DNA of 64,000 nt, from the NCBI GenBank assembly GCA_027625915.1, contig JANTQA010000036.1:5601001-5665000 (forward strand), read 5' to 3'. Source of the stretch: Anaeramoeba flamelloides (Eukaryota > Metamonada > Anaeramoebidae). Position 1 is the first letter of the stretch. Each line of letters begins with the position of its first letter. The notes beneath the pieces were generated by a model. That model searched no databases and was not told the DNA's origin. It was given only the letters and a program-made list of their open reading frames with translations. Made by a program: the position numbers and the translations under genes. Shown here one piece after another: positions 3,456 to 55,757 of the stretch.

Positions 3456-3535
<80 letters not shown>

Positions 3536-10192: not shown

Positions 10193-11233
10193 GCTATTTC
10201 CAATAAAGTGGGGCAAATTTATTTTAAAACATATCTTTTAAACACAATCTTAAAAAAAGCATTTAAACATCCAAAACCATTAACTACCATTTATCGATTC
10301 TTGATAATAATTCAATTTGGTTCTTAATATTTTATTATAGAAATAAAAGATATTAAATTTTCTGATCTCGATTTTATCTGATATTTTTTTGGGGTGAAAA
10401 TTGGTGTTTATTATTTTCTTTTTGTTTGAAAAAATTGTTTTCATAACTTGTTTAATCACAACAAATTTTCAAATAGAATTGAAAACATATAACTGCATTT
10501 TATTGTTTAAAAAATCATTTGTACCCTTTCCATATTTCCAGTTTTTTATTGAAATTTGTCGTACATTGTTTTCACCAAAAAAAGTGCTATTTTTTTTTTC
10601 ATTTTTTAAAAATATTTCATCCAACTTATTTTAAAATAAATACCTTAGCCATCTGTTCAATTAGTATTAATATTACTGTTGAGAGAAAAATGTTGGACAG
10701 AGAAAAATAGTTGGACAGCAATTTTAATTGGGAACATTACTAAAAATGATTTTTAATTTCAATTGTTTGTGGAATAACTAAAGAAAATAACGATAATCTA
10801 CTCATTAGAATAATGATTAATGTAATTCTACTTTTTCAAAACCTTATCTCTTATAATCTGAAGCAAGTTTAAAAATTACCATTTTCAGAATTAATAGTAA
10901 ACTTTACTACAACTTGGATTTTTGTTAAAATAGCATGATCTACTTTTGGTTATCAACCACTCAAATGAGTATTCTACACACACCACAGATTAATGAACTT
11001 GTAACACCTTTAAACCTGGATTTATATAAAATTCACCTAGTTATCAATAGGATTTGATTTTCAATTTTACTAATGTTCCCAATTAAAAATGGTGTCCAAC
11101 CATTTTTCTGTGTTCAACATTTTTCTCTCAACAGTTAAACTTAATTTGAAATCATCAACTAATGAATACTACCACTAACAAAGATGATTTTTTATGAAAT
11201 GTAAAAAAAAATGCCCCACTTTTTTGGAAATAC
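10193..11233. mobile_element. GGGGCA-family foldback with a nested MITE
   Basis: The ends are inverted repeats around TATTTCCAATAAAGTGGGGC (left) and TATTTCCAAAAAAGTGGGGC (right, read inward). About 580 nt are its own; the 10676-11134 element is inserted in the middle. ORFs at 10401-10710 lie inside it and are Phe/Lys/Ile-rich noise. Confidence 0.7.
10676..11134. mobile_element. CTGTTGAG-family MITE, copy 1, TTA target duplication
   Basis: 459 nt flanked by TTA on both sides, with terminal inverted repeats starting CTGTTGAGAGAAAAATGTTG. Reading inward from either end, a GTTGGACA-type motif starts at base 17 and again at base 35. The second copy is at 30713. A TTA duplication is the type used by PIF/Harbinger elements, but the terminal bases are not the usual ones for that group. 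Confidence 0.88.
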
Positions 11234-11235
11234 CT

Positions 11236-11360
11236 TAGTTAAAACTTCCAAAATAAAAAATCTAAATTTTCATTTATCTTTCTGAAAAAATCAAATTCCA
11301 AGAATTAAAATAAATCACTAAAGTACCAATTTCAGATCCGTAAAAAATAATTTAAGGGGG
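11236..11360. mobile_element. CTGTT-family MITE, left-end fragment
   Basis: Diverged match to the left half of the CTGTT family (AAAATAAAAAATCTAAATTT and what follows), without a right end. Confidence 0.4.
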
Positions 11361-11923
11361 GCAAGTTCATTTTTCAAATTGTGGGTGCCATCATTTATGC
11401 GAAAATGAATTTTTCAAATCATTTTTTTAACCAAATATATCGTTATTTTGATAAATACAGAAGTGGAATATCTCATAGTATAATATATTTTCATACCACC
11501 CAAAAATGGAAATCAAAAAAATGAAAAAGATTGATCAAAAAAAAATTAATAAAAATCATTTATTTCTTGATCTTATCTGTAACATTTGATACAATTAATT
11601 ATTCTTAATTTGGCTTTAACCTTAATTCTTCCGAGAAAAAACTTTTTTTTGTAAAATTTTTGAGAAACAAATTACTTTTTATTCCGAAAGAATTTCCAAA
11701 ATAAATATTTAAAATCCTATTTTCATTTGATCGATCTAGTTCTTGATTAAGTTCGGAAAATAGGAGATTTATTAAATTATTCTTGAGAATGAGGGTTTAT
11801 TAGATAAATTCGTTTGATTTAATAATTATTTATTTTAATGCAATTGAGAACTAAAAAAAATTCTGAATCTGATTTCAATTTTTTCGTTATTTAAATTTAG
11901 AACTTTTACAAATTGACTAAATA

Positions 11924-12345
11924 GATACTCATATGTATTAAAAAATAAATCAGGATATAACACATTTAAAAAAAAAGAAAAATGTAAAAAATGTGATTAT
12001 TGTACTCAATATAATGAAAATATAAATCACTTCATTTGGTGTTGTGAAAGATATAAATTTATCAGAATCAAGTGGAAAAAAAAATTGTCAAAAATTCTAG
12101 ATAAGAAATTATACGAAAATTTTATTCTTAGAAAAAATAGACAGAAACTCTTCAACATGACTAATCAAAATTATGAAATTTTTTGCACTTGTCGGGAATT
12201 TTTTATCAAAGCTCTTATGGTTAGAAAAATTCAGGTAATAAAGAAAAAAGAATAAAAATATCGTGAAAACTAAAAAATACTTAAAATAGTAAAAAAATAT
12301 ATAAATTCGGGCACCTGGTGTCCCACTCTGAGGGGTAATGTCTGT
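11924..12345 (+). mobile_element. 5'-truncated LINE: C-terminal ORF end and 3' UTR
   Basis: An open frame from about 11924 to the stop at 12255 encodes a non-LTR retrotransposon ORF2 tail. It contains KCKKCDYC, then NENINHFIWCCERYKFIR, then a Lys-rich segment, matching the Cys/His motif (CxxC...H...C) seen after the reverse transcriptase in many LINEs. The reverse transcriptase itself is absent, as expected for a 5'-truncated copy. A short 3' UTR with a GTGTCCCACTCTGAGGGGTA segment and a T run follow. Confidence 0.7.
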
Positions 12346-12426
12346 GTTTTTTTTTTAATTCAAAAGAATTGAGCAAAAACAAATATTTTACTCTATTCTT
12401 TTAAATAAAAAAAAAATCTTACAACG

Positions 12427-12849
12427 GTGAAATATCAATTATTAATCATGGATTGCGGAATCTTATTTATTGCTGATAATCTTTATATCGTGTTTTTAAT
12501 CCTCCTGTTTCAGGATAAGTGTCGTAAATTGCCGTCGATTCCCTATGTTTTCTTGAGTTTTTCTGGTTATTTGTGGAGTGTTCTAGGTTTTTTTGAGTTT
12601 TCTAAACTATTTTTCAAAAATTTTGACTCACTTTATAATGTTAATAGATGTTTTTTTGAGGGTTTATTCCAGTATTCTTAACAAAAAATATTTTCAAATT
12701 TTTGGATCAGAATCATTTTTTCTAATTTTACAAATTTTTGTTTTTCTATTGTTTTTCAAATTTTTGTTTTTCTTTTTTTTTCTGTTTTTATTTCTTTTTC
12801 TTTTTCTTTTTTTTCTTTTTTTTTTTTTTCTTTTTTTTTTAAAAAAGAT
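12427..12849. other. T-rich spacer with an isolated minisatellite unit
   Basis: Around 12565-12610 lies one reverse-orientation copy of the CCTAGAACACT-type unit found at 13195 and 56640. The rest is poly-T, and the overlapping Phe/Leu-rich ORFs are not supported as genes. Confidence 0.45.
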
Positions 12850-13030
12850 AATGTGGAAAAAAAAAGAGATCTTCGAAAAGACAAATAATCACTAAGAAAA
12901 TTTTGGCTATATAATGTCTTTGAAAATGGATTTAATTATTCATAAAAATCTTGTTAAACTTATTTCAATGAAAGTTCAGTAATAATTAATCGGTAATGCT
13001 CCTTTCAAAAATTGTGACTCGCTTTTTTTT
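12850..13030 (+). repeat. Dispersed repeat, copy 1
   Basis: Matches the reverse complement of 45303-45480. Shared landmarks are AAAGAGATCTTCGAAAAGAC, GACAAATAATCACTAAGAAA and a terminal AATTGTGACTCGCT. Identity of the element is unknown. Confidence 0.65.
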
Positions 13031-13194
13031 AGTTTTTGGTTTTTATTTTTTTTTTAATATATCAGGCTTTTATAGATTTAGAATGACTTAAAAGTACATT
13101 ACATATCATATTTAGTTATTAATTGTACTTTAATACTAAAGGATATTTTTTTTTTCAATTTATTATAATTCAGGTGAGTCACAATTTTTGAAAA

Positions 13195-13780
13195 GGCGTT
13201 TATTTCTTGAGGAAATCAATAGATTTTAGTTAGGTTTTTTTGAGTTTTCTATTTATTTGGAAAATCAATAAATTTTCCAAATAAAATAGAAAACCTCAAA
13301 AAAACCTAGAACACTCGACAAATCAAATAGAAAACTCCACAAAAAAACCTAGAGCACTTCACAAATAAAATCGAAAACCTCAAAAAAACCTAAAGTTGGT
13401 TTCACTTTTAAGGCACAAACTTCAACCAAATTTATGGTAGAATGAAAAAATTTAAAATTAAGGCACAAAATTCTGATTCTAGTAAAAATAAATTGGAAAA
13501 TAACAATTCAATTTTGTGCCTTAAATTGAGATTTTTTTGTGCCTTAAATTTCGTTGATGGTTTTTGCCTTAAAAGTAAAACTGGCTGTAGAACACTTCAC
13601 AAAAAAAAATATAAAACCTCAAAAAAACCTAACAAAAATCAATTGATTATGCAAATAGACAGAAAACTCAAAAAAAAACTAAGGACGATTTTCCAAAATT
13701 TGAATGAATTTAGTAAAATCATTGTTTTTACTCAATTCTTTCAAATCCTGGAAAACCTAACCACAGCAAATAGTTTCTAT
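13195..13780. repeat. Minisatellite-like foldback with CCTAGAACACTT units
   Basis: Imperfect units of about 40 nt built on AAAACCTCAAAAAAACCTAG plus AACACTTCACAAATAAAAT, next to an inverted arm (AGGTTTTTTTGAGTTTTCTA). The same array is found at 56640-56935, and its flanking segment (GGACGATTTTCC and what follows) recurs at about 63902. A CAGTCAG MITE lies inside. Confidence 0.65.
13391..13587. mobile_element. CAGTCAG-family MITE, copy E (decayed)
   Basis: Recognisable palindrome with TTTTAAGGCACAAACTT on the left and GCCTTAAAAGTAAAACTGGC on the right, inserted in the minisatellite-like repeat. Ends and target sites are degraded. The 147-codon ORF at 13442-13885 runs through it and is not a gene. 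Confidence 0.75.
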
Positions 13781-13899
13781 TTGTTCGTGAAAATGATAAT
13801 TTTATTTTTTAATTATATTTTAATTATTTTTCTTATTCTCTTTTTTTTATTTGATATATTTTTCTTTAATTACTCCTTTCTCTAAATAATAATAATAAT

Positions 13900-15889
13900 T
13901 TTTTCTAAATTTTACTTTTGTTTTAAGTTGAATTTTTTGTAACTATTTTTTGATTTTGAGAATTCAACCCCTTTATTTTAATTTTTAAAAGAAACTCTAT
14001 TTCAAAATAATTGTCCCATTAAAAATCAAATTTTAAAGAAAAATATTTTTTATAATTGAAGTTATCTATTAGAATATAAAAATTTCGATTTTAATACCTA
14101 GTTATATACTCAAGAGATATTTATTTTTCGTCTAAAAATAAAATAAACAAAAGTGAAAAAAACAATTAAAAAAAATTGGGCTATTTATTTTGAAATAAGC
14201 ATTACATAAAAAATAGAAAATTTTTATGAATTAATATAACCCATTTATCGATTCTCCTTTCATTTGAATAACTAAATCTAATCTCTTTTTCATATTTGAA
14301 CCAATTTTTTCATTAATTCATTTGTTTCTTCTCTCCAAATTTTCATTTTCATTTTCCATTTTAACAAAACACTATTGAAAAAATAAATAAGAGAAAAAAT
14401 GATTTATTTTTTAACTTTTCATTATGAGGGAAAAAACTTCAAAAAAATAAATATACAATTCAAAATTTAAAATGTAACATGGATCATTTATTATGAAATT
14501 TAGTTTAGTATTTTTTATTTTGGTTTTGTTTAATAAAAATATTTGAAAATTGAATTTTGAAAACAAATTTGTAAAAAATTTATTTTAAAAGAATAATAAA
14601 CAGTAGTGGTGCGAGAAATTCAAGGTTATAAATTGTTTGGATTCATACAAATTAAGAGAACAAAAAAAAACAAATTTTCGAAAATGGGCTTTTATATATA
14701 TATATATATATATTTCATTTTTGATTTTAACAAATTTATTTGGAAAGGTGATTAAACTTATGTATTTGGTCTTAAAAAAGAAAAATATTTGTTTCAAATA
14801 CTCACCTTCTCATGTCTATTTTTTTTTTTTTGGTTAACTGTTTGATTAATTTCACTCATTCATATCAACTTATTTCTTGATCCAAAACATAATTTAATAA
14901 AACCAAAAATTTAATCACAAAAAAATGTTGTTCAAAAAATTGAAAAATTTAAGATTCAACCCTGAATTGCTTTGGGTTCGTTTTCTTTTCACAAACAGAG
15001 TAACGAATGATGTTTTGGTTTCAAAGTTTCAATATCTTGTGGCACTCAAAAAATATCTTTCAGTAAGGTTCATACAATTAAAAAAATTTCAAAATGGTAA
15101 AGTGTACTTACTTGCTTAATAGTCTTTGATTCTTTACAGATTTAAAAATTTGAAATTACAAGGATTTTGAAAATTTTTCTTTTGAAAGCTGAATGAATAT
15201 TTTCTTCCATTAATTTTCCAACAAATAGTAGGAAGTGATTAATTACATTTCAAAAATTTTCATTTATGATTATTTTAGCCAAGATATATGGGTTTGTTTC
15301 AGCCTTATATTAGTAAAATATCTGAAACCCAAATTAATAAATTTTAATTTTGAGACGGAAACTCAAGGTCATTGGTAACATTGGGGGGATCTTATTTATA
15401 TTTTCAAATTACTTGTCATTTTATTATCCCGTACGTTTTTCTGAGTTACATAAGAAAAAAAAAAAAAAATATTTGTTCCCAATTTTACAAGTATAATTTA
15501 AGAAAAGTACAAAAAAAGAGCCAGTACAGAGCTGAAAATACCCATTTTAACAACACAAACCCTTCTCTAAAATTAAGACCATGTTTTTTTTTTTCCATAG
15601 GGCCCCAATACCTCCCAAATGGTTCACCTAAAACTAAAGTATTTTAAGTGTTAACTCTTGGTATTTTGAGAAAACTTTAAATTAGCAATGCAATTTGAGT
15701 AAAATTTTTCTTTTTTCTGAGGAATTTTTCAATTTTTTTAGTTTTTTGATCTAAAATTTACCTCAAAAATTTACTCTATTTTTTTGATATAAATTTTTCC
15801 AATTTGATCTTTTATTTTTCAGAGTTTCCATTTTAATAATAGAACTTTAAGAAAACAATACCAATGCGAACCATAGCCTTGATCTATTA
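13900..15889. other. AT-rich gene-free stretch
   Basis: Contains a (TA)n tract at 14693-14713 and an isolated right end of the CTGTT family near 15190-15231. A 64-codon ORF at 14925-15119 (MLFKKLKNLRFNPELLWVRF...) has reasonable composition but no recognisable domain, splice sites or partner exon, so it is not annotated as a gene. Confidence 0.45.
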
Positions 15890-16115
15890 CTGTTAATTGC
15901 AAAATAAAAAGATCAAAATTTTCAGTCAGCTTTCCAAAAATAAATCACACGCTTCAAAGAATTAAAACAAATCATCAAAGTATCCAATTTTAATAGGGGA
16001 ATTAATGATTTAAGCTTGTTTTTAGAATTAAAAATTCGAAAGGTTATTAGATTTATAAATTCTTTTTTTGGAAAGTTGAATGAAAAATTAGAACCATTTA
16101 TTATGAAACAAATAG
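15890..16115. mobile_element. CTGTT-family MITE, copy 3
   Basis: 226 nt between TA dinucleotides. The left end is CTGTTAATTGCAAAATAAAA; the right end is ...GAAACAAATAG. About the same size as the copies at 9708 and 54122. Confidence 0.85.
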
Positions 16116-19100
16116 TAAGATTAAATATCTTGTATAATTAAAAAAACTAGCTTTTTATTATTGAAACATGATTTTAAACTTTTCTTCTGACACATCTATT
16201 TTTAACAAGACTAATTAATATTTGCAATTTATTATTCAAAAACCACTTAGTCTTAAAACAAAAAGAAACTTGTCTTTTTATTAGAAATATGAGTCCACCG
16301 TGTCTACAGGTATTTTTTTTTCTACCAGTCATATTGAATAAGATCTCACTAATAACTCTAATAATAACAAGAATGATTGAATTACTTTCAAACTATTTAC
16401 TCTTATAAGTTGTAAAGACTTGTGGACGTATACTAATTTAAAATTTAAAAAAAATACAAAATAAACTACTCATGGGGTGTTCTTGGAAGAACTTCATGTT
16501 GAAGTTCTATTTTAAAATAGAACAACAAAGAAAAACGAAAAAACAACTTTTGGTAAAAATTAACTAAATATTTCAATTGAAGATTGGAATCACTCAACCA
16601 AAACAAAAGAATTGTACCCTCGCTGTGCTTTAAGAGGCAATTGAATTTACTGATGATTCAAAAGTAAGAAATTTTAAATGTAAGAAAAAAGTTTTTTTAA
16701 AGTCTTTTAACTTCATTTTTCGCACTATGAAAAAAAAATTAAAGAAGAATTAAAAAGAGACAAAATCAAGATATAAGGAACCCATTTTTTTTTCGTCTTA
16801 ATATGTTGTGAATCTTCTGGGACTTTCAATATTGTCATTCTGAAATCGAGAAATTGAACTTTAAATTGAAAAATAAGTACAACTTTTTTTTTTTGATTCC
16901 TCTTTTTTCCATAAAAACAAAAAACGAAGTGTTGGATAAATGATTCAAACAACCTGATTCAAAACTGAAGTTCAAAATATATTCGAACTTTTCAAAATAA
17001 ATTGTTCAAATTGGATATACAGTGATCAAAAAACAAATACCCAAAACAATAATCAAAGTTTGAAAATAAAATTCCTACTTTTTTTTTTTTTTCTTCTTGT
17101 TCAAATAAAACATCCAATTCAGTATCCAACAGTATACCGAGGGCTCAGCTCAGTTTTGAAGAAAACTCTCAGATCGTTTTTAACACAATTTTGCTTTTAG
17201 AAATGTAATTTGTTTACCAATTTTTTGTAATTTTCATCTTTTTTCATAACTCAGAGTTTTTTTTTTTTCTCTTAATAAATTATTCAAGAAAATAAACAAA
17301 ATATTACCAAATTTCATTCTTCATTTTTAGAATTTTTTCCTTATGAATATAAGAACAATAAGCAACCAATTTCTTATTTACTTAATGTTTATTGTGATAT
17401 TATTTATAGAATAGATCTTTGATAAAAAGTAAAAGGGGTTTAATTTTGAAAAAAGGATTATACTTTTCATTACATGCTATTTTAACAACACTATGGTATA
17501 CTACCAATTATAAAAGTTAAAAGAAAATTTTCACCAATTCATTTTTCCATCAATAGCTGATGGGTCTAATCAAAACTCAATTTTTAAAAACAAATGACGA
17601 ACTTTTGAATTTCGCAAACTGAATCAAAAAGATTATTGAACTCTGCTAGTTCCTTTCTTGATCAAAGTTACTTTAATATTCCAGACATTAAATATAACCT
17701 AATTGATTTAAAAATCAAATCTGGTAAGAGAGAAAAAGTGATTATTCTCAAGTTGTTTAAAACCTATAGTCTAACTAATCGTGTAATCTGATGTATACTC
17801 TCTTAACAGTATTTCACAACTTTGGGTAATTACTTTTGAAAAAGATATTTAAATGTCTCAATCCCAAAATGTTAATAATTTTCATCTCAAGAGCCTTGAA
17901 CAAAGAAATACTTTGAATAAATAGTTTGGAACTTCTTGTCTCTGTTTGAAAAGGGTAAAGTAAAAAGTTTCCAAAATTATTTCTCATTTCTTTGAAAAAG
18001 AGCAATAACGAAAAAACTGCCATTTATAATCCAAAAGAAAGGAACAACTCACTTGAAAAGTTCTTCGCCCTTAACTTTCTTAAACACTGAAAACAAGAAT
18101 TGGTTGACAAAAAAAGAAGAATTTTTTTTTATATAACAGAAAAGTGAAGAAAGTTTTTAGATTAGAAAGTTTGGAAAATTAAGAGGAATTTCTTCTCAAA
18201 ATATTCTACTTTACCGGTTAGTTGTCACGTACCAATTAGATGACATTTTCTTGGATCAGTGGTCACGGTTTATTTACAATTGAAACTATAGATATCAATT
18301 AATTGATATACCCTAATTTTTTTTTTTTTTTTTTTATTTTTTGTGATTTTTCTATTTGGCAAAAACAACCGCTTGAAAATGAATGAAATTTCATTTGTTC
18401 AAGATCAAGACTGTGGTTATTTTTGAGATTCAGGTGATATATAAAACAATCGAGTTCAGTCGTTATTCAAACTTTAAATTCGAAGAAATTAGTTTTCCAA
18501 TCAATAATTATTGTTTCAAGTTACACATTATTTTTCTCAAATGGAAAATTGTTTTCTATCATCTACCACAATCACTTCAAAAACTTGTTTTGTTTTTGGA
18601 GTAAAAAGATCATTTCCCATACCAAAAATAGGAATTTCCGAAACAGTTTTTCTTGGAAAAGAGTTCAGGTCATTGTACTTGATCAACAGTTAACTTGTTT
18701 CAATTTTAAAATTAGTTTTAAAAATTTATTCCCAAATCACAAAAAATGAAAACTTTATTTCCTTTTTGTCTTAGAATTTTATCAGCGATCTTGAAAAAAA
18801 AAATAACCCACAACCAAGATTCTTATTGAAGGTGTTTTTTTGAAATTAATGAAATCTATCTCTTAATCAACAATAATGAAAAAAAAAAATTTCTTAATTC
18901 GAAAAAAATAAAATTTATGGAAGGTTCTTAAATTGATAAATAAATACTAAACAAAAGACGACACTATAAAGAATACAAATCTCAAAATTGTGAGTTATAT
19001 TTTTTTCTTTTCATAAAAAGAGATATAACCAAGATATTTTCGAAAATCGATTAATTAGAAAAGTTCTTTTTCAATGATTTTTCTGAAAATCAACTGTTCT

Positions 19101-19454
19101 TCAATTTTAAGAATCTATGGTTGAAGTTGTGTTTTCTTTGGCCGTGTAATTAACTCACAATCTTTGTTGTTTGTTTTAGAGTTTTTTCAAAAACTTTTTC
19201 AAAAACACCAATATATTTTAAAAAAGAAACTCCTGGCAACCATGGAAGAAACACAAATCGCTTTTCTCTTTTCTCATCACCTTGACAAAATAAAGTTTTT
19301 TTTTCTCCATGTTTTGATTTGATAAATAATTCATTTATTTTTAAATTTCTTTAATTAGCAAATTCAAAAATAATTTTGTATTTTTAATTTTTTTTTTTTT
19401 TAAAATACCTTGATTTTAAACAACAAGAGTTGACAGATTGAAAAACAAAACACG
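16116..19454. other. Gene-free stretch upstream of the cyclin gene
   Basis: AT-rich with scattered short ORFs in overlapping frames (18383-18749 in three frames; 16725-16952 and 17814-18023 on the minus strand), none with a recognisable motif. The last few hundred bases should hold the cyclin promoter, but no element can be named. Confidence 0.45.
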
Positions 19455-21073: not shown

Positions 21074-21109
<36 letters not shown>

Positions 21110-30712: not shown

Positions 30713-31151
30713 TTGTTGAGAGAAAAATGTTGGAAAGCAATTTTAATTTTGAACATTACTCAAAATGATTTTTAATTTCTTTTGTTTGTGAAATAACTAA
30801 AGAAAATAACCTTAATTTACTTATTAGAATAACGACTAATGTGATTCTTCTTTTTCAAAACCTTATCTCTTATAATCTAAAGCAAGTATAAAAACATCCA
30901 TTTTCAGAATTAATAGTAAACTTTACTAAAACTTGGATTATTGTTAAAATATCATGATCTACTTTAGTTATCAACCATTCAACTGAGTTTTTTATACACA
31001 CCACAGATCAATGAACTTTGAACACATTTAAACCTGGATTTATATAAAATTCACCTAGTTATCAATAGGATTTGATTTTCAATTTTACTAATGTTCCCAA
31101 TTAAAAATGGTTTCCAACCCATTTCTGTGTCCAACATTTTTCTCTCAACAG
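30713..31151. mobile_element. CTGTTGAG-family MITE, copy 2
   Basis: Aligns end to end with 10676-11134, including a long near-identical middle (ATTAATAGTAAACTTTACTA). The right end keeps both subterminal motifs; the left end has lost one unit. Flanking TTA repeats are no longer visible, so this looks like the older copy. Confidence 0.85.
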
Positions 31152-42302: not shown

Positions 42303-42383
42303 TTTCAACCTCTTGACTCAGCTTGGAATCATTCCCTATACTTTTATTAATTAACTTTTTTTTCTTTCTTACTTTTTCTTTTA

Positions 42384-43248
42384 CCATTGTGAAAAAAATT
42401 TGGGTAATTAAAAAAAATTGGGTACAGTCAAAAATTTGTTTTCGTTTTTTTAAATAGTAAATATTAGGAAAATGATTTTTGATCAAAGTAAAATTTTATG
42501 AACAAATCTTACATTTAAGAAAAACCAAAGTCACTATCAATAATAATTTTCAAAGGTAAAATTAAATTGTTGCATTTTTGACCTTTTAGAATTACTGTGG
42601 AACTCTAAAAACAAAAATTGAATTTTAATTGTATACTTTACTAAAAATAAGAGAAATATTTAAAAGGAAATATTAAAATCTATTAATTCAATAAGATATT
42701 TATCATTGTTAATGAACGCAAATTTATCACGGTTAATCTTAAATAACCTTTTAAATCAAATTGAATAATAAAATCTTCCAAAAAAGATGTTTTTTCGAAA
42801 GAGATTGTTTTCCACTAATGTTTACAATCAAAACTTCAAAATACCGAAATATCAAGATTTCAGAAACCATTTAAATTCTTAAAATCCCCTTAGACAAACC
42901 TTAATTTAAAACGGTTATTAATTTTTGGTCTTCCCAAACAATGATTAACTAGATCTTGGAATGTAATCTAATAAAAAAAATCAACGTTTTTAGTAAAGTA
43001 TACAATTAAAATTCAATTTTTGTTTTTTAGAGTTCCACAGTAATTCTAAAAGGTCAAAATGCAACAATTTAATTTTACCTTTGAAAATTATTATTGATAG
43101 TGACTTTGGTTTTTCTTAAATGTAAGATTTGTTCATAAAATTTTACTTTGATCAAAAATCATTTTGCTAATATTTACTATTTAAAAAACGAAAACAAATT
43201 TTTGACTGACCCAATTTTTTTTAATGACCCAAATTTTTTTCACAATGG
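42384..43248. mobile_element. CCATTGTG-family foldback, TTA target duplication
   Basis: 865 nt flanked by TTA on both sides, with inverted arms of roughly 270 nt that are nearly identical. Both ends read CCATTGTGAAAAAAATTTGG inward. TTGGGT(CA) starts at base 17 and again at base 35 from each end. The mirror-image ORFs at 42232-42486 (-) and 43148-43366 (+), both beginning MIKNHF, are the two arms and not genes. Confidence 0.92.
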
Positions 43249-44650
43249 TTATCTTTTTTTTCTACTCTTTTTTTCTGTTTTTTGGGATCGTTTGGGTTGG
43301 AAATATTTGAATTTTTTGAATGTTTCGAAAAACAATTCTTCGTCTAGACAATCTTCTAATCTTTAAAATTATAAACACGATTGTCTTAATATGAGCCTTT
43401 TTTCAAAGGTGTAAATCAAAAAGTTTACCTTGGGTCATAGTTCGGTTTCTGCTTGAAACCGGTTTCAAGTAACTTTTTACAACTTTTTGTATTCACTTTT
43501 TGGGAAATGACTTTTTCAAAAATATCAATTAAAAAATAAACCTTATCAATAATCTTTTTTCAATTTAACATAACAAAGCTGGGCAAAAAGAATGAAGAAA
43601 AATTAACATTCGGCTGGTTTATTGTCAACTAAACAAACAAGGATCATCAAAATATTCAAAATTTTTTGGATCAAAATCTTTTTTATCACTTTTTCATACG
43701 AAAAAAGGCAATGAAAAATGATAAATAATAAAGAACACAAATCAAGTTGATGAAAAAGACGAAACAATAAAAATGTAATGCAAGAGTACTTTTTGGAACA
43801 TAAGATAATTTCTTACTCTCAAACCCAAAATCCTGAAATTTTCTGATCATTTGAAAATATTAGTAAAAATTCAAAAATTGAACTTAACATTTTAAAGATA
43901 TATAAATTACCAAGCGACTATTAATAGGTATAATTGGGATATTGATTTAAATATTCTAAAACTATCAATTTTAACCTCTTGTATTAAATGCAGAAATGAG
44001 AAAAAATTCAGAGAGTCCATGACTGAAAATTAAAATCAAATTGATTCTATTTATTCTTCAGATAAATTATAAATTTACTAGAAAACAATTACTGGTATTT
44101 TAAAAAAATGAGTAATTTTTTTTTTAAATTGAAAAAAATTGAAACTTTTCCAAAGTAGAAAGTTTTAAAAAAGGTGATACTTTAAATTTTTTAAATGAAC
44201 ATTTTTTCCAACTTTTCTATTTCCAAAAAAGGAATAAATAAACCTTTTTAAGATGATAAATACACTGGAGTGAGAAGAAATGTAGTTTTATTTTTTTGGA
44301 ATATCATCTTTTTATAACTTTTTTTTTTATAGAAAGATTCATTTTATCAATCGAATTAAAAAAATGTCCACATTGTTTTTAAAGGAAAAACTAGAAATAA
44401 GTTCAAATAAAGTCAACATTTTTTTAAAATAGCTGGGTTATATTATTACTTTACTTTTACATTTATAAAATCTGGGTTTTTATTTATTTTTTTTTTTTTT
44501 TTGATATTTGCTTTAAAATTTTTTTAATATTTTTATTAATAAGGTTATGAACTTTGTTTAAGCCTATGAAAAGAAGAAAATTTCTAATTGATAATTATTT
44601 TTTATAATTTAACTTTATAGAATAAATAAATAAAATACATAAAATATATA
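43249..44650. other. AT-rich gene-free stretch
   Basis: Contains a small palindrome (TTGAAACCGGTTTCAA near 43458) but nothing coding. Confidence 0.5.
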
Positions 44651-45158
44651 AACCCCATTCCAAAAATTTGGACACACCCATAATCAAAAATAGGCAAAAT
44701 AAAACTCAATTTATTATATTTTTCCAAACATAAGACAAAAACATATTTAAGTTATCCAGTATTACTGTTTTTCTAATTAATGGTCTTAATTCAAAGAGAA
44801 AAAAAATTGGTGTGTACAAAATAATGAAACAAGCCTATCAAAAAATTTGTATTGATAAATTTGTTTAAATTTCACCAACAATTGTTGATCGATCAAACGA
44901 TAAGATACCTTTGACCAATTATATGTGATTTTTCCAATTTTACAAAACCAACACTAACCTTCTATCAACTATCGAAAAAAAAAAATTCTAGATCTAAAGA
45001 AATGATAACGTAACTGGAAAAATGGAAATTAAATCAAAAACAAAAAAGATAAAAAATGAAATAGTTTAAAGAATCAAAATTATTTCGAAATTGAATGTAA
45101 AAGTGTTGTATTGCTATTCTTTCCACTGTTTAAACTGTCTAAATTTTTGTAATTTAGT
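44651..45158 (+). mobile_element. GGACACA-family MITE, copy 1
   Basis: The left end is AACCCCATTCCAAAAATTTG followed by GGACACACCC. The right end runs into TAGTTTATATATATA. An internal segment (GATCGATCAAACGATAAGAT) recurs in the copies at 50580 and 51118. No coding capacity; ends sit in TA-repeat sequence, so the exact target duplication is masked. Confidence 0.75.
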
Positions 45159-46005: not shown

Positions 46006-46791
46006 TGTTTAAAAAGTGAAAGCCAAAAATTGAAAAGAAAAAAGCAAAAAGAAAAAAAAAAAAAAAAAAAAAGAAATTTAAAAAGGGTTTATAAGAAGCA
46101 ATTGGTAAAAAATCAAAAAAAAAAAAAAAACAATGCTATCTTTAATTAAGAACTCCCAAAATCACAGCCACGATACTTTTGGTTGATTTAATAATTTGAT
46201 AATTGATCATGAATGTTCACTTGGGGATCGTTATTTAATTGTTGTAATTTCTTTTTTTTTTTTGATCTTATTTGCTTTCAACCTTTGGTCATTTTAGCCT
46301 TTGCTTTTTAGTTTTTATTTTCAAGTTACGCATACTTTCGTGTTTCAGTGTTACAGTATTAGCAAGTAACCCACTTGATCTTTTTCCTTTGTAACTCTTC
46401 TTCCCAATATAAAGAAGATTCAGCCAGGGGAAAAATGGAAAAAAATAAAAAAACAATAATTATATGAAAAAATTGTTATTATATTTTTTTATTTACTAAA
46501 AACATGAATCCATTTATCATATACACAATACCAATATAAACAAATAAATATATATATAAAATACATTTAACAAAACAAAAAAAACAATTTAAGTTTATTT
46601 TTGTAAAATAATGATAGTATAAAAATTTAGAGCAAATATATTTTAAATTAAAATAACCATTAATCAGAAATAAATAAATAAAATATAATGTTTATATAAC
46701 ACAAAAATAGTTCAAAATGAATTTTTTTTTTTTAAATAATTTTTCCAATTCTTCAAAAGAATTATTATTACTAAGATTTTAAGAACCAAAT
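46006..46791. other. AT-rich 3' flank of the HECT ligase gene
   Basis: Long A tracts and no supported gene. The 3' UTR of the minus-strand ligase gene should lie here. Confidence 0.5.
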
Positions 46792-49700
46792 CTAATAAAG
46801 ACCAAAACCTTCTGAATTTTCAATTGCTAATTCTAATTTACTTTTTAATTTTTCCTTTGATGAATATTCTGGTAAAATAAGAATTCCATAACAGGTACTA
46901 GCCTTTGGCAAAATTTCACTATCTGGTCCGCCACGGGCTATAGAAAAACGAAGATGAATTAACCCACCAATTGGCACACGATCAGTACCAAAACAAAAAG
47001 AGAGAAATTTCCTCTGCCTTTCTTTATCCCAGTTCAACATTATTTCCCAAATCCATCTTTTCAGTGATTTATTATTTTAAGTTGGATATAAAAAGTAAAA
47101 ATAAATAAATTAGAATTATTAGAGAATTAGATATTTCCAGATACAATTATCTATCTTTTTTTAAGTAATAATAATTAACAAAAAAAAAAAAATACTTGAT
47201 TTGAATTGAATTGCGGTCAAAACCATCTCTATATTTTACAATTGTTTTTAAATCAACAAGATCAAACTCACGATCCCCACAAATTAATGCTTCGAGTTCT
47301 TCAGGCTGAATTAACTACAATTTTGAGTAATTTTTTTAACAGAAATATTACAAAATATTTATTGTTTAAATTAAATATACTTTAATATATATATCTAATA
47401 TAAAGAAAAAAAAAAAAGGGATAGGAAGAAAGTTTACTGAAAATAAGGGACTATCACAAACCAATTGGAATCCCAATTGAAATTTTTTAAACTGTTGTTC
47501 AATGGATTTATTAAGTTCCCAATCAACTAATAAATTAACGTATTCTTCTCTATTTTCATTAGTTACAGGAATTTTATCTCCATTTTTTTTTAAATTTACA
47601 AAAACATTTTCACCAAAAACATTTTTATATACAATTTGAAATGTCAAAACAAAAGTCTCTTCAACGTTGCCTTCAAAATCCAATAATTGTTGTAAACCCT
47701 TTCGCAATTTAGGTTTATAGTCTATCAAATCTTCTAAAAACAGAGGTTGGTTTAACAATTTTTTGTAAATAGTCATTGGGAATCTAACACCTAAAATCAC
47801 CGAATTGTAAATCGCCAAGCCTAAAAGAGTACCGATAAGCTTATAAGAGTTCATCTCCCCAATATAACTTTTATTAAACCAAAAATTTGTTTCTTTTGTA
47901 TCTGCATTTTGAACAAACATTCCATATTTTGGATCAAAAAGTTGATCAATAATTATTTGAAAAAATTCTTTCTTGACACCTCCTTCATCAACACCATCTT
48001 CTCCTTCAAATACAATTTTTAAACCTTTGTGTAATTCAGATTTTGTTGCCTTTTGGTGATTATTTGTTTTTTTTTTTTATATTTATTTATTTTTTTTTTT
48101 TGAGTTGCCATAAAGGTATTTCAGTTAATTTTGAAATAAATTTTGATAATGGCAATTAAAAAGACTAAAAGAATAAGGTGATTAAAAAAAAAAAAAAAAA
48201 AAAAATTTACTCGATCAAGATGGTTAATTGTATCACCAACAACATTTTTACGACGTATTATCATTTTATAATATGGATCAAATTCTTGCCGATCTAAAAA
48301 TGAATTAATATAATTGAGCTGTATAGATTTTTCTTGTATCCTTCTTGATTCAAAAGATAATAAACTTGACTTATTCCCAGAATTAAGTAAAAATGGATAA
48401 TCAATATATGAAAATTTTTCTTCTACATAATTATGATAATTATCATCAAGATCAAAATTTTCATTAATTGCAATATTATAAAATAATTGAATTTCAATTT
48501 TTTTTCTTCTTTTTAGGTTAAGCTGTCAAATAATAATTAGAAAAAATATAAGTTAGAATAATATAAAAAAAAGTTTATTATTAGAAAACATAAAAAATTT
48601 CATTATTTAATTCTTAAAAAGTTCAAATATTAGAAACTAAACTCTTTTTCAAACAAAAATGCACGTCTCTCAAATGTTCAATACTATTGAATTTGATTGT
48701 GAATAAGATAATTACTTAATTGGTGATTTTCATTTTAATTATTCATTTTTTCATTTTTTTTTTCTTTTTTTATTTATGGATATTGAACATTTGGAAAATG
48801 AAAAAAACAAGATAAGAAGAAACCAATTTGAAAATAATCTACCAGTGTATAAAAATGGAAATAGTTTAAGTTTGATTTCGAATGAGCTAGATATAGGAAT
48901 TAAGAAAGATCATTATTGGATTGATAATGGAACAAAGAAAATAAAGAAAAAAAAAAAACAATCGCAACAAAATACCCTAGATGAATTGTGGATTTATCTT
49001 GAAAAAGAGGATTAAAAGAACAAAAGTTTTACATGTAAAGAGTTATCAATAAAATGTAGAGAACTTTTTCTCAATTCGCCTTGTTCAAAGGTTTTTATTG
49101 ATTTTAAATTTTTTTCTTTACAATTTACAAAACGAGATTTCTCATTTCAAATAAAAGGGCACATCAATTTTTAAAATATTGAATTTTAATTTTTATTGTA
49201 TTGTTTTAATGAGTTTTAGAGATTAAATTCAATTTTTTTTTTTTAATTTGTTTTAAAGAGTTTCTTATATTTTAGAATGATACTACAATTAATTTGATTC
49301 AATTATGAATAATTCTTGAAATTATCTGTGCCTTTTTATTCGAAAAAGAGTTTACTATCTTTAATTATTGATTAATCAAAATTTGTTTTTTTTTATAAAA
49401 AAAAAAAAATAAAATATATTATTCTGTTTATTGAGGAAGAAGTGTAAATTACACTCTTGTTACTCTTATACTTAAATTTTCAATTAGAAATTTAAGCGTA
49501 AAATTAAAGATTTCATGATTATTAATCAACAAAAATAATCTTAAACTGTCATGGTTTGAAATTATTTCATTAAAGTTTAATTCTTTTATTTTGTTTTGAA
49601 ATATCAATCTATCTTTTTTCAAGGAAGGGCATACCCATAAAAAATGATTAATATTATTTATTATTTATTTATGTTCATATTTTAAACAGAAAGGAGAATA

Positions 49701-50488
49701 TATATTACATAGTAATATCTATTTAAGAAATTAGTAAAATTTCTAAATTTTAGAATTGTTCAACTTGATTTATAACTTTAATATTTATAAAAATAGTAAA
49801 TTAAACCTCTTGAGTTAATGAAATAGTTACAATTGTTTATTCTTCATATGCTCTACAAATCAATCAACCAATAAATAAATATCTACTAATAAATTGAAAT
49901 GTACTCTTAAATTTCGAGTACATAACAAAAAAATATTGGTAAATTGCTTTGAAATTTTACTAATAAATATTGATTGATCAAAAGTTAGAAAGCATCAATT
50001 AATATATATTTGTTTTCTGTTTTCTTAACAAATGTAACTAAATAAGAATCATTCAAAGTAATTTATTGATGGAATGAAAACAATTAAGTAAGTGAAAAAT
50101 GAAATGTTATACAAATTAAAGGAATGAAAAAGAAAAACTCCGAAAGTGATAAAAGCAAAAATATTTAAAAAATTCAGGAAAGTATGGTAACAATATTCTT
50201 TTTACAATATTTAATTATTCTTTTCCAATAGTTAGCAATGTTCTAAATGACTTTGCTTTACATTTTAAAACCATAATATTTGAAATATTTTGTTATTTTT
50301 TTTTGTAGTTCTTAATTATTATTTTTTATTTTTTTTCATTACAAAGAAACAGTAAATTATTCTTCAATTAAAAATAAAATTTTGAATTTTAAGGATATTT
50401 ATTAAATTTCAGAAAAAAATAAAATATAATTTAAAAATTCTACTTTGAAAATTCCAAATAAAAAAAGCAAAATAAATCTATATGTCAA

Positions 50489-50580
<92 letters not shown>

Positions 50581-53500
50581 AACTAAATTCCAAAATTTTG
50601 GACACAGTTTAAACATTTGAAAGAATAATAACCCCACACAATTTATATTCAATTTGGAAATAATTTTAATTTTACATACTATTTCATTTTTTGTCTTTTT
50701 TGTTTTGTTGTTATTTATTTTTTTTCAGTTACGTAATCTGTTTCTTTCGATCTGGGAATTTTTTTCGATGGTTGGTATTAGGTTTGTGTTGAGTTTGTTA
50801 AATTGAAAAATCCACAGACAATTCGTCGATGTTATCTTATCATTTGATCGATTAAAAATTGTTGGTGAAATTTCAACAAATTTACCAATACATTTTTTGT
50901 TCTGCTCGTTTCCTTATTTTGGACACACCGATTTTTTTTTTCGTTTTTTATTTTTATCTTTGATTTAGATGAAAATGATTACTTATAAAAACATTTATAC
51001 TCTGAAACTTAAATGTGGTTTGTATATTATAAGTTTGGAAAAATATAATAAATTGAGGGTTTTTTTTTTTTGCCTATTTTTGATTTTGGGTGTGTCCAAA
51101 TTTTTGGAATGGGGTTTATATATAAACTCTTCTTAAAAAATTTTAACACACCAAAATTCAATTTTTCAAAAAAAAAATCTTATTTAATAAATTCTCCAAG
51201 AAATGCCAAATTAGAATCATTCACTAATTGAAATGTTAACAATTGTTTATAACTTGTAATACTCAAAAAACAAAAAATAAATAAATATTATACTAATAAA
51301 TCATGGATGTGTTAAAAATTTTGGAGATTGCAGAACAAAAAAAAAAAATGAACTGGTAAATTTATTTAAGTTCTATTCGAATTATTGATCAATTAAATGG
51401 TTATATACCATCAACTACTAATTTTATTTGATTTTTTCTGTTTGAAGAACTCAACTTTAACCTAATACCAATCTTTGTTCTAAAAAATTTCTGATAGAAA
51501 GAAACAGATTACGTAACTGGAAAAAAATGAAATAAAAAACGAAAAGATGAAAAAATGATTTTTATATTATACAAAAATTAAAATTTATTTCCAATTTGAA
51601 TGAAATTGTATTGTTGTAATTCTTGTAACTATTTTAAACGCGTGTAAAATTTTGGATTTTTGGTTATATATATATATATATAGGGAGAAATAGAGAAGAA
51701 AAAGAAGAAGAAGAAGAAGAAGAAGAAGAAGAAGGGCAAATAAATAATTACCTTAAAAATATCATTCAGTATATTAATAGAAAGAAAAATAGAATTGCTT
51801 GGGGGAAAAACTGAATGCCTCTGGGAAAATATGTTAAATGAGATATATTGATTTAGAGAATTAACTAATAAAGTTAAAAATGGAGTTGGGAAATTATTGG
51901 TACACCATCCAATAAATATCTGTTTTGCTTGTTTTGGTAATTCAAGATAGCACTTAATCAATCTTTCAAATAATTTTATATAATTCTTTTTCAGGAATAT
52001 TGGAAAACAAAAAAGGATCGACATTCTTCTTATATATGAATATGATTTTGTTGTATGACATTCCTTTTCTAAAAGTTGAATTTGCTGTTCAATTGCTGGA
52101 TAAATAGATTCAGATATAAATTCGCCCTTAATATAGAGAAAAATAAAAATAATTTTGTTTGAAAATATAATATTAAATCAGGATATATATAAATATATAT
52201 TTAATTAAAAATGATAATTGATGTTATTCCTATTATAACTAAATTAAAAAAGAAAGATTTTTAAAGGTATTACCTTTACAAGCAATATTAATTTAAAAGC
52301 GTCAATTACTTCCTCTAAATTTATACCAGGATCATTTTTATTCAAATGCCTACAATAATAAGATTCTTTACTATTTTTAAATTTTTTTGGGATTATCTAA
52401 TTATTTTTTATTTTTTTTTTTTTATGTATTATCAATAAAAAAAGAAAGAAATTAAATTTCGATTTAAAATTGGATAAAAATTAAGAGAATTTGGCTAAAA
52501 AGTTAATAGTAATATAATATATTATCAAAATTGTTTTAACGAAATATTGATTATGTAATTAATATTTTTTTTTTATTTTATACAACTGTTTTAAAAAAGT
52601 GAAAACTTTTATTTTTTTTTCGAGATTGTCGGAATTAAAAATTTTTTAAGTTTTTTGTTTTGATAAACGTAATGGACTTTTTTTAAAAAAAAGAGCTTTT
52701 CTTCCCGACTTTAACCTCTACCCCACATTCAAAGATTGAGCCCTCACCTTTTTAAAATAGAAAAAATTTATAAAGTTTTAATTCTTATAAAGTCCTTATT
52801 TTTTTATCAACTTTTGGGCAATTTTGTATTAGATCATTTTTTTTTTTTTTGATAATAACTATTCTGGAAAAAAATTGTCAAATCAATTTTAATTGTAAAA
52901 TTATGTTAAAAGTTCTCATTTTCAAATATTTTATAATGTCTTTTTGTTTATTTTAAATAAAAAAAAAAGTTCAAAAATTATATTTATTATTGAAATCAAA
53001 ATAGAATTCAAAAATTCAAATTAAACCAAAATTTACACATTTTCAATTTTCCGAATTTAGATTTTAATTGTAAACATTTGAAAAAGCTATTTTTTTACTA
53101 AAGTTTTGTTACTATGTTTTTTCCATACATGTGAAATTGGATCTAAGATTTTAACAATAGGTATTAATCAGGTTTGGCGTTATCAGTTTCATATATCTAC
53201 ATTGATCTGTGAACTATAAGTAAAAACAAAAGTGAAAAATTTTTATTTTTACTACCGTCTTACTATTAAAACAGATTTGCCAATTTTTTTCCAGAATGGT
53301 AAATCTATTTTACCGTTGTGGAAAAAAAGTGAAACATGGTTTTTAATTGGGAATACTAATAGAACCTGAAAATGAAAAGTAAAATCAATTAAAAGAAGAA
53401 ACCAATTAACTTCAAATAATAACCCATTATATTATTGTCAATCAACCCAACAAATACAATTTAAATCCACTTTTATGATTTATCGAAATTGTTGGTGTGG

Positions 53501-55757
53501 TTTTGGAGATACCAAAAATAGTCAATTTTTTGAACAAATTTTTAATAATTGATCAATCAAAGAAAAACCCACAATACCAAAAGATAGTATGAAAAAAAAT
53601 TGTTATTGTGACGAATACTTCATTTTGTCTTTATTTATTTATTTATTCTTTTTTTAATTGATTTTACTTTTAATTTTCAGGTTCTATTAAGGTTCCCAAT
53701 TAAAAACCGTGTTTCACTTTTTTTCCTGTTTCACTTTTTTTCCACAATGGTTATCCTTCTGGAAAAAAATTGTAAAATCGATTTTAATTGTAAAATGTCT
53801 GGCAAGGAAATATTCTTCAATTATTTTTTATTTTTTTTAGCTGATCGATAAAAAGTTCTGAAACTGAAATTCCCAAAGCCTGATTAATACATATTGTTAA
53901 AATCTCCAAGTCAATTTCACATGAATGGAAAAAGCATAGTAACAAAAAACTTGAGTAAAAAACATTAACTTTAACAAATGTTTACAATTAAATCTCAAAT
54001 CCGAGAAAAATAAAAATATGTAAATTTTGGTTTAATTTGAATTTTTAAATTCTATTTTGATTTCAATAATAAATCTAATTTTTGAACTTGGTTTTTGTTT
54101 AAAAATCTCAAAAAGACATTACTATTTGTTGCAAAATAAATGGAACAAAATTTTCATTCAGCTTTCCAAAAACAAATTTTTTAATCATATAACATTTCAA
54201 ATTTTTTCTTTGTAAAACTACCATAAATTATTAATTTCCCTTTTAGAATTGGTGGTACTTTGATGATTTATTATAATTCTTGTCAAGTATGTTATTTTGG
54301 AAAGCTGAATTAAAATTTTGATCTTTTTAATTTACAACTAACAGTATAAAATATTTGAAAATGAGCACTTTTAAAATTGATTTTACAATTTTTTTCTGAA
54401 TGGTAAGTTCATTAGTTAGGAAATCATTGGAATATAGATTTTGGAGGATACCTTCAATATTGAGAAAATTGCAAATACTAGATATTTGAATAATAAATGG
54501 AAAAAAATTTACTCTTTGCTATCCTTTTTTGTTAAAAGGCCTTAAAAAAAAAGAGAATCACAAGTAAATAGATCGAAATTTAGATCACTCCTTTATTTTC
54601 TTGATCCTTTTTTATTCTATTTCTTATTATGCTATATTTTGGATGAATTAACAATCCTAAATGAAATGAATTTTGAATTACAGATATTTGAATTGAAATG
54701 GAAAAAAATTTTCACTTCATTTTCACTTTCTTTTTAACAAAGAAACTTTCAGAGAAATAGATTGTAATTAGTGATCTCTCAGTTTATTTGTTTCGTCCTT
54801 TTTTCTGTTCTTACGTTAATTGGGAGAACTAAGAATCCTCGATAAAACCAAGGTTTGATTCTTGAAAATAGGTTAATTAGCTGAAATTTTGTCTCAATTC
54901 TATTTCAGACACTAGCGCTTATTAAAATAAAAACATGAAGAATTAATTGAAAAAAAAAATGAAAATATTCAGAGGTTCACAACAGTTTTTTCCAAATAAG
55001 TGAAAATATTAAACATGATTTTAAAACTTATAGAAGCGAAGGCTTAATTCAAAAACAAATTACCAATAGGAAAGAATAGAATAAAAAAAAAAGAAGGAAT
55101 TAAAAAAAAAGAACTTATTTTTTTGATCCTCAAAGAAGATCATTCAAAAAAATTAATAAAATAAAATAGAAACCAAATTGGAAAAAGAAAAAGATCAAGA
55201 AAAAGAAAAAGATAAAGAAAGGAAAACAAACTGGAGAAAAGGAATAGTCAAGATCTTCTGTTCCCAAAACACTCACAATAAGTTCAACAAGTAGTAGTTC
55301 TCTTTCGTCGGATTCAAATATTTTTCTAATTTTTCCAATCCTGAATTTTGAAGGTTTCATTTCTTTTATTTCACACAAAACCCTGTCTTGGTAAAAGTAA
55401 ACCAATTTAAATGCTTGGGATGCAAATTCGTTTGGGGTGGATAGATCAGAAAAGATAAAAAAAGAACAAGATCTGCAATATTTATTTTGACATGATATAT
55501 TGTCACACCCATTTTGTAATTGCTGGAAATATCTAACAATAAGATTGTTTTTGTTTTGTTGGTTTCAAAGATTTGTTTGGAATGGAGTAATAAAAAAGGA
55601 AAAGAAAAGAAAAGAAAAGAAAAGAAAAGAAAGGAAAAGAGATAAATTGAGTTTTTAGAGAAAACAAAAAGTTATTAATGAAATCAAAGAAGACAAACTT
55701 TTTTGTCCATAATTGGATATTATCTTTTAAGGCTTTTTGTTCTAAATTTTCAGTCAT
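46792..55757 (-). CDS. UBE3A: E6AP/UBE3A-type HECT ubiquitin ligase with AZUL domain, eight exons
   Basis: Exons (minus): 55757-55699, 55532-55232, 52396-52274, 52126-51752, 48522-48211, 48049-47438, 47314-47196, 47056-46792. All phases agree and total 721 residues. Residues 20-60 form the AZUL zinc finger, with the C-x4-C-x4-C-x2-C pattern at 29, 34, 39 and 42 as in human UBE3A. Residues 160-290 match the UBE3A helical region (LIKCYLELPKQAKQIFIGWC). The HECT domain starts near FDPYYKMIIRRKNVV and contains EDGVDEGGVKKEFFQ, LLGLAIYNSVILGVRFPM, NGDKIPVTNENREEYVNLLV, FCFGTDRVPIGGL and the catalytic TCYGILILPEYSSKEKL. Cys689 lies 32 residues from the C-terminus, the same distance as in E6AP. It charges ubiquitin on Cys and transfers it to substrates. 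Donors are GTAAxx or GTATTT, except two GTTTGT sites in the first two introns, and several acceptors lack pyrimidine tracts, so exon 1 is the least certain. Confidence 0.93.
48776..49015 (+). CDS. Possible 79-aa nested ORF in a HECT-gene intron, unrecognised
   Basis: Lies on the opposite strand inside the 3.2-kb intron between exons 4 and 5. The sequence is not simple low complexity: it begins MDIEHLENEKNKIRR and ends with a Lys-rich stretch and LDELWIYLEKED. There is no recognised domain, and the stop coincides with the start of a dispersed repeat. It may be a small gene, one exon of something larger, or chance. Confidence 0.3.
   Translation: MDIEHLENEKNKIRRNQFENNLPVYKNGNSLSLISNELDIGIKKDHYWIDNGTKKIKKKKKQSQQNTLDELWIYLEKED
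49012..49370 (+). repeat. Dispersed repeat, copy 2 (uninterrupted)
   Basis: Aligns with 7093-7648 but lacks the CAGTCAG MITE, giving an empty site near 49283 (GAATGATACTACAATT). Confidence 0.7.
49430..49715 (-). mobile_element. 5'-truncated LINE: ORF2 C-terminus (minus strand)
   Basis: On the minus strand the frame reads YSPFCLKYEHK, one in-frame TAA, then NNINHFLWVCPSLKKDRLIF and about 45 further residues to a stop at about 49455. The CxxxH...H...C layout matches the 11924 LINE and other non-LTR elements. The single stop and missing 5' part show it is dead. Confidence 0.7.
49740..50250 (+). mobile_element. GGACACA-family MITE, strongly diverged copy
   Basis: Weak collinear match to 51118-51662: both have ACAATTGTTTAT, an ATAAATAAATAT segment, ACTAATAAAT and a later TTGATTGATCAA/TTGATCAATTAA block. 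Boundaries are uncertain. Confidence 0.4.
50492..50580. repeat. (CA)n then (TA)n microsatellite in a HECT-gene intron
   Basis: About 36 CA units followed by about eight TA units, directly abutting the end of the next MITE. Confidence 0.97.
50580..51117 (-). mobile_element. GGACACA-family MITE, copy 2 (inverted)
   Basis: Reverse orientation relative to 44651: begins AACTAAATTCCAAAATTTTG plus GACACAG and ends with GGACACACC's complement, then TTGGAATGGGGTTTATATAT. A core segment shares AGTTACGTAATCTGTTTCTT with copy 3 (as its complement). Confidence 0.75.
51118..51662 (+). mobile_element. GGACACA-family MITE, copy 3, head-to-head with copy 2
   Basis: Starts TATAAACTCTTCTTAAAAAA at the shared TATATATAAAC boundary and runs to TTGGATTTTTGGTTATATAT. 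More diverged at the ends than copy 2, but the AAGAAACAGATTACGTAACT core is identical in sense. Confidence 0.7.
51694..51734. repeat. (GAA)n tract next to a splice donor
   Basis: About 12 GAA/AAG units. On the gene's strand this is a CTT run beginning about 17 nt into the intron after exon 4. Confidence 0.95.
52859..53299 (+). mobile_element. X-family MITE, copy X1, TAA target duplication
   Basis: 441 nt with TAA on both sides (52856-52858 and 53300-53302). The ends are CTATTCTGGAAAAAAATTGT and, read inward from the right, CCATTCTGGAAAAAAATTGG. From the left end TTGTxAAAT starts at base 17 and at base 35. Lies in the large intron between exons 2 and 3 of the HECT ligase gene. Confidence 0.85.
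53313..53750. mobile_element. Y-family foldback, TTA target duplication
   Basis: 438 nt flanked by TTA on both sides, with arms of about 80 nt. Ends read CCGTTGTGGAAAAAAAGTGA (left) and CCATTGTGGAAAAAAAGTGA (right, inward). At the right end GTGAAACA starts at base 17 and again at base 34; the left end has one copy. Sits between X1 and X2. Confidence 0.88.
53754..54403 (-). mobile_element. X-family MITE, copy X2 (inverted, with insertion)
   Basis: Inverted relative to X1 and collinear with it over nearly its whole length (for example AATTTGAATTTTTAAATTCT against the complement in X1). The minus-strand start CCATTCAGAAAAAAATTGTA is flanked by TAA. Interrupted by the 223-nt CTGTT-family element at 54122; without it the length is about 425 nt, close to X1. 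Confidence 0.85.
54122..54344. mobile_element. CTGTT-family MITE, copy 4, inside X2
   Basis: 223 nt between TA dinucleotides. Ends CTATTTGTTGCAAAATAAAT and CTGTTAGTTGTAAATTAAAA (right end read inward). X1 holds the same sequence without the insert and with a single TA. Confidence 0.93.
55589..55645. repeat. (GAAAA)n tract in the first HECT-gene intron
   Basis: About nine AAAAG units. On the gene's strand this is a pyrimidine tract between exons 1 and 2. Confidence 0.9.

Follow-up and report, generated by a model that had tools for sequence, protein, structure and literature searches.

Inverted-repeat elements at the locus

The stretch of DNA considered here (the window) is 64,000 nucleotides long and comes from the metamonad Anaeramoeba flamelloides, in whose assembly (254 Mb, 76 contigs) it occupies positions 5,601,001 to 5,665,000 of contig JANTQA010000036.1. 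It is AT-rich and eukaryotic, with a GC content of 0.239. The window carries four families of miniature inverted-repeat transposable elements (MITEs), called C, CC, X and Y, and the subject of this analysis is the layout of their ends and the transposases that would recognise it. An earlier note on this DNA had proposed that all four families share one terminal geometry, with a family-specific motif at bases 17 and 35 from the tip, and that their TTA or TAA target duplications suggest mobilisation by PIF/Harbinger-like transposases.

In a scan of the window for inverted ends with TTA or TAA on either side, scored over 20 end positions, 26 candidate pairs reached at least 16/20 and only four reached at least 18/20. 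These four are the elements named earlier, and in each of them the inverted ends match and a 3-bp duplication is present (Table 1). The boxes of the window copies lie where they had been placed in C and CC (both ends) and in Y (a pair on the right, one unit on the left), and the single unit in the left end of the second C-family copy was also confirmed.

Table 1. Elements and end boxes in the window; numbers in brackets are box positions counted from the tip
Feature	Positions	Strand	Length (bp)	Details
C-family MITE	10676..11134		459	CTGTTGAG tips; TTA duplication at 10673-10675 and 11135-11137
C left end	10692..10717	+		boxes GTTGGACA at 10692-10699 (17) and 10710-10717 (35)
C right end	11093..11118	-		boxes GTTGAACA at 11111-11118 (17) and GTTGGACA at 11093-11100 (35)
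Second C-family copy	30713..31151			left end a single unit; duplication not clear
CC-family MITE	42384..43248		865	CCATTGTG tips; TTA duplication at 42381-42383 and 43249-43251
CC left end	42400..42423	+		boxes TTGGGT at 42400-42405 (17) and 42418-42423 (35)
CC right end	43209..43232	-		boxes (TTGGGT) at 43227-43232 (17) and 43209-43214 (35)
X-family MITE	52859..53299		441	CTATTCTGG/CCATTCTGG tips; TAA duplication; one-unit ends; core TTTTAATTG at left position 29
Y-family MITE	53313..53750		438	CCGTTGTGG/CCATTGTGG tips; TTA duplication; one unit left, two right
Y right end	53710..53734	-		boxes GTGAAACA at 53727-53734 (17) and 53710-53717 (34)
Longer second X-family element	53757..54403		647	left end one-unit; duplication not preserved

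Copies across the genome were counted by matches to a tip pattern with at most three mismatches, on the forward and reverse strands and alongside a control pattern; the counts include transposase-coding elements. The C tip gave 1298+1258 matches (control 0/0), CC 551+558 (control 10/11), Y 1653+1643 (control 18/12) and X 179+175 (control 0/0); by tip counts the MITE copies number about 3,700 in all. Tips of the TA and G families gave 329+327 (control 0/0) and 37+33 (control 0/1), respectively. A pattern of a tip and two A-tracts, in which the box was left free, found 1197+1248 matches against 149+161 for its control.

Tandem units and target duplications

Sampled copies were the first-listed places in the genome, with mostly perfect tips, and were chosen by tip and first box, so that the second unit alone provides an independent test. 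The C sample comprised 19 of 20 fetched loci and the window copy (L109, with a single end, was excluded, and the copy at 30713 was not counted); the CC sample comprised 17 of 20 loci and the window copy, without L026-L028, in which the second end is not clean. The longer second X element of the window and L089 were excluded from the X counts of end repeats and duplications. Two loci with tip pairs, L081 of the TA family and the CC-type L070, stand outside the end counts since their matching duplication is undefined. For each end, the place where the 8-mer of positions 17-24 recurs was recorded, and a stricter two-unit test required an A-rich stretch ahead of the second box.

The second box in C and CC ends is more than chance. 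The unique best recurrence lies at position 35 in 39/40 C ends, while the 36 CC ends have it at 35 in 32 cases, at 34 in two, at 38 in one, and as a tie of 35 and 39 in one. A repeat of at least 7/8 at positions 34-36 is present in 39/40 C and 31/36 CC ends, compared with 0.65% (C) and 0.97% (CC) of dinucleotide-shuffled ends for a 7/8 repeat. The two-unit test was passed by 38/40 C ends and 35/36 CC ends, in which the second unit is at 34-35. Once the A-tract is included, the repeat proves to be a tandem unit of an A-tract and a box of ~8 bp (in Y, GGAAAAAAAGTGAAACA occurs twice in succession), and a two-unit end consists of a tip (~8 bp) followed by two units of 17-18 bp each, in total ~42 bp.

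The flanking duplication is exactly 3 bp and of the form TNA. Flanking triplets are identical in 60/66 elements and four identical bases were found in none; the 60 matching triplets are TTA (27), TAA (25), TGA (4), TCA (2), CAA (1) and TTT (1), so that TTA and TAA together make up 52/60. The context CTNAG was present at 1/57 sites. The TA family (ACCGGACA) has a 2-bp TA duplication in 6/6 elements, and its layout is unchanged.

One-unit ends in the Y and X families

Pairing is not a general property of the Y and X ends. The paired boxes of the Y right end in the window had been taken as the state of the family; among the sampled Y ends, the second box is absent in 17/22, the two-unit test was passed by 5/22, and both ends are one-unit in 6/10 fetched pairs. 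Among sampled Y copies the one-unit state is the more frequent. Genome-wide, a two-unit Y pattern with a 17-bp pitch gave 447+464 matches and a pattern of one unit plus core 380+433 (controls 0/0 for both), a ratio that is rough as the two patterns are unequal in strictness.

In the window X element both strings reported earlier are present, TTGTCAAAT at 17 and TTGTAAAAT at 35. The second lacks an A-tract ahead of it and sits in the inner core TTTTAATTG, and the 17/35 appearance is a partial match; X was accordingly rejected as a paired-motif family, its sampled ends being mainly one-unit. Its start differs with the number of units: it lies at 29 where the end has one unit (left ends of X and Y) and, when a second unit is present, one unit deeper at 46-47 (C and the right end of Y). 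Among the samples it starts at 29 in 11/22 X and 16/22 Y ends and at 47 in 35/40 C ends; in 8/22 X ends no match to the core pattern was found. In 3/22 X ends the second unit is a genuine one that brings an A-tract of its own; two of these have a deeper core (48 and 49). The third, in L137 (G000:C9:8479079-8479164, reverse strand), has three tandem A-tract/box units, which suggests a change in copy number of the unit.

The second motif is absent from most members of X and of the Y sample; this is not the case in C, CC or the transposase-coding families described below, with the exception of K. The one-unit Y and X copies show that an element can spread without the second site, which is at most helpful.

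Transposase-coding partners

The earlier note had suggested a search for a transposase gene whose own ends carry the 17/35 layout, and such genes were found. The DDE_1 domain (PF03184) has 72 matches in the genome, of which 30 were fetched and 42 lie outside the sample. A tip pair encloses the DDE_1 match in 17/30 fetched loci. Inverted ends and a duplication define both ends in 17/30, the other 13/30 being without two defined ends, and 15/17 are two-unit at one or both ends. Three of the window families have coding partners whose tips agree with theirs and whose boxes lie at 17 and 35 (36 in C): CC (L060), C (L071, L072) and Y (L059, L080). Two families outside the window, with tips CTGTTGTG/GTGAGGAA (L061, L063, L064, L088) and GAGTGTTG/ACCGGACA (the TA family; L055, L056, L062, L069, L079, L082), have the layout as well. 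The duplication of the K family (L074, L078) is also 3 bp, but the repeat is only weakly shared. The box diverges between families, whereas the spacing stays. The proposed shared two-site layout applies to C, CC, the coding partners of Y and the two further families, while X mostly, and Y often, lack the pairing. The idea of a fixed geometry with a diversified motif, as repeated predicted transposase sites, is supported by these coding elements.

No X transposase partner was found among the 30 fetched DDE_1 loci of the 72 matches. L089, a 1.73-kb X element, was considered as a bearer of the X transposase and contains none, and in the two long C pairs L107 and L108 the longest reading frames show no transposase. 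Five loci (L075, L083, L084, L086, L087) encode large DDE_1 proteins, with frames of up to 892 residues as fetched and 1097 in the search list; they have long flanks, some exist in near-identical copies, and clear ends were not found.

The transposases are homologous, and protein identity between the TA family and the others is 22-31%; the tree drawn of them covers the proteins of this genome alone. The DDE_1 domain is recognised with E-values of 3e-17 to 1e-22 in 5/8 fragments, the other three being N-terminal or cut inside the domain. In 10/10 proteins 35 residues separate the second and third catalytic sites (DD35D); one site is substituted in L060 and in L077, and the L087 fragment lacks the first Asp. 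The helix-turn-helix (HTH) domain HTH_Tnp_Tc5 passes the cut-off in G (E 1.6e-5) and falls below it in K, Y, C and CC (1.5e-4 to 1.8e-3); in the TA family it has E 0.18, and HTH_psq E 0.02. These matches are weak, yet they are equally placed in each family. A PDB sequence search with the transposase profile returned two unrelated matches only (E 0.63 and 0.91), and Foldseek with a predicted model of the DNA-binding domain gave no match below E 0.001 (the CENP-B structure 1hlv served for comparison). Judged by their domains (DDE_1, DD35D, HTH_Tnp_Tc5), these transposases are Fot-like and belong to the pogo superfamily. They, rather than PIF/Harbinger transposases, are the probable source of the MITEs.

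Comparison of MITEs with their coding partners delimits the end module. For C and CC, 38-39 of the first 40 positions match and identity is lost just beyond; the two-unit Y ends match L080 at 34-35 of the first 40, the Y consensus being drawn from no more than four ends. Local alignments agree with a loss of identity at that point, which marks the inner edge of the module, no function being assumed. Further in, the C and Y MITEs have a common segment, TTTTTAATTGGGAACATTACTRAAAATGA (80 bp at 74%, E 2.7e-9), although their end modules differ, and X carries the core TTTTAATTG at the corresponding place. In the coding partners compared, the TTTTTAATTGGGAACATTACTRAAAATGA segment was not found beside the end modules.

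Harbinger-type loci

Harbinger-type transposases (PF13359, DDE_Tnp_4) have 26 matches in the genome. Their loci, L029-L054, hold Harbinger/IS5-type elements of ~1.44-2.2 kb with AGAGATWTT ends, which we take to be ISL2-like. Paired ends of this type are present at 16/26 loci, and the flanking triplets are identical in 15: ATT (5), AAT (5), AGT (2), ATA (2) and ACT (1), that is, 13 ANT and two ATA. Two Harbinger places were counted twice, as adjoining matches gave two loci. Within the 3-8 kb of DNA fetched per locus and with at most five mismatches, a MITE tip pair encloses the transposase match at 0/30 Harbinger-type loci. Tip matches exist at eight of the 30 (L037, L038, L039, L051, L052, L053, L066, L067; L039 and L052 overlap). 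In L053 and L067 a single left tip faces the gene, and a right tip was not found in the fetched DNA; the Y-like end beside the Harbinger gene in L039 points away from it and was dismissed as a link.

Origin of the MITEs and of the fixed pitch

The MITEs are probably (with a probability of 0.78) non-autonomous members of sister Fot-like pogo transposons, whose ends consist of a tip and one or two tandem 17-18-bp A-tract/box units. Each unit would be one site for the two-HTH, CENP-B-like DNA-binding domain of the transposase. Its A-tract may be read by a conserved GRP hook and the second HTH, and the variable box by a fast-changing first HTH. Two transposase subunits placed side by side on each end would account for the fixed 18-bp pitch. 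The module alone would let the MITEs spread in trans, and for X and the one-unit Y copies a single unit would be enough.

Mobilisation by PIF/Harbinger-like transposases, the source proposed earlier, would fit the 3-bp TTA/TAA duplications, and PF13359 transposases are indeed present. The TWA duplication is not specific to PIF/Harbinger, however, being shared by Fot-like elements; 16/26 Harbinger loci have end pairs of their own, and enclosing tip pairs occur at DDE_1 loci and at none of the 30 Harbinger-type loci. Such an origin is highly improbable. Another reading is that a single transposase spans both boxes with one HTH per unit, making each end a bipartite site of ~40 bp. The presence of two HTH modules in the DNA-binding domain agrees with this, but the boxes are identical in sequence while the two HTHs differ, the unit has the length of the CENP-B box, and one-unit Y and X copies have spread, which together make a bipartite site rather improbable.

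The pitch could also be merely inherited from a single ancestor with a duplicated unit, with gain and loss by slippage and no functional pressure on spacing. In favour of this, whole units have been lost cleanly from C, Y and X ends, some X ends such as L137 carry additional ones, and the transposases are homologous. Against this, tips and boxes have changed along with the diverged proteins while the pitch is still 17-19 bp, and nearly all C and CC ends retain both units. We regard inheritance as an unlikely full explanation, though part of the fixed pitch may be plainly inherited. A more tentative extension of the Fot-like origin, which is possible but on balance doubtful, is that the ends are interchangeable codes on one chassis of an 8-bp tip and A-tract/box units at an 18-bp pitch. 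As the transposase changed, so would have the box, the tip and even the duplication (TNA or TA), and MITE bodies could move between codes, in line with the inner segment common to C and Y MITEs.

One genome offers five sister pairs of transposase and end code with constant geometry. The MITEs of at least three pairs are present in hundreds to more than 1000 copies, and the same MITE occurs naturally in one-unit and two-unit form. The way in which the DNA code of a two-HTH transposase changes, and the need of transposition for paired sites at each end, can therefore be tested directly. TTA/TAA duplications alone would likely misfile these MITEs under PIF/Harbinger.

Other repeats in the window

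A TA-flanked repeat with the tip CAGTCAGTTTCAC is found at 5901, 6706, 7356, 7552 (reverse strand) and 33505 (and 3590). AGGCAC-type boxes are placed at 19 and 44 in 4/6 copies, with another at 67-68 in 3/6, giving a different layout with a ~25-bp pitch; pieces of this repeat are apparently inside the DDE_1 genes L057, L076 and L077. Dispersed long inverted repeats pair 44842-44981 with 50759-50898 (83% complementary) and 3459-3538 with 50485-50564 (96%). An A-rich array of degenerate AAACAAAAT-like units, mostly spaced by 9 bp, occupies 8749-9104 and begins a few hundred bases past a tRNA-His gene (8299-8369).

Comparison with known systems

Paired sites at the ends of a pogo element have a precedent in Drosophila. 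Wang et al. are said to have reported in 1999 that the pogo transposase binds a 12-bp sequence that occurs twice per end; the element reportedly has a TA duplication, and the sequences and their positions are unlike those described here.

Fot and Fot-like pogo elements have a DD35D transposase with HTH_psq and/or HTH_Tnp_Tc5, TAA or TA duplications and inverted ends of 40-60 bp (PMC7386202). The Anaeramoeba elements resemble them in DDE_1, DD35D, HTH domains, TAA/TA duplication, end length and an element length within 1.2-5.2 kb. They differ in that their 3-bp duplications include TGA and TCA, and in the repeated 18-bp unit inside the ends, none being mentioned in the parts of the description compared (PMC7386202). 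Bogo of the ciliate Blepharisma, also a pogo-family element with HTH_Tnp_Tc5 and DDE_1, DD35D and a TAA/TTA duplication, shares its ends with thousands of ~389-bp BogoMITEs; as described, it is a single family with a C-rich end of ~30 bp, in contrast to the five found here, which have transposase genes and ends built of A-tract/box units (PMC9942856). Tc4 of nematodes, arthropods and tardigrades is similar in its TNA duplication and DDD transposase but targets CTNAG, a context that fits a single site here (PMC11071193). CENP-B has a two-HTH DNA-binding domain and a box of 17 bp, the length of one unit (PMC4585704; PDB 1hlv); in the same account it is a centromere protein rather than a transposase, and its box is another one.

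A constant A-tract/box pitch across pogo families that differ in code and duplication length was not found in the open-access literature searched, subscription papers being mostly outside the search. The kind of element is already known; within these searches, the constancy of the pitch across families looks new.

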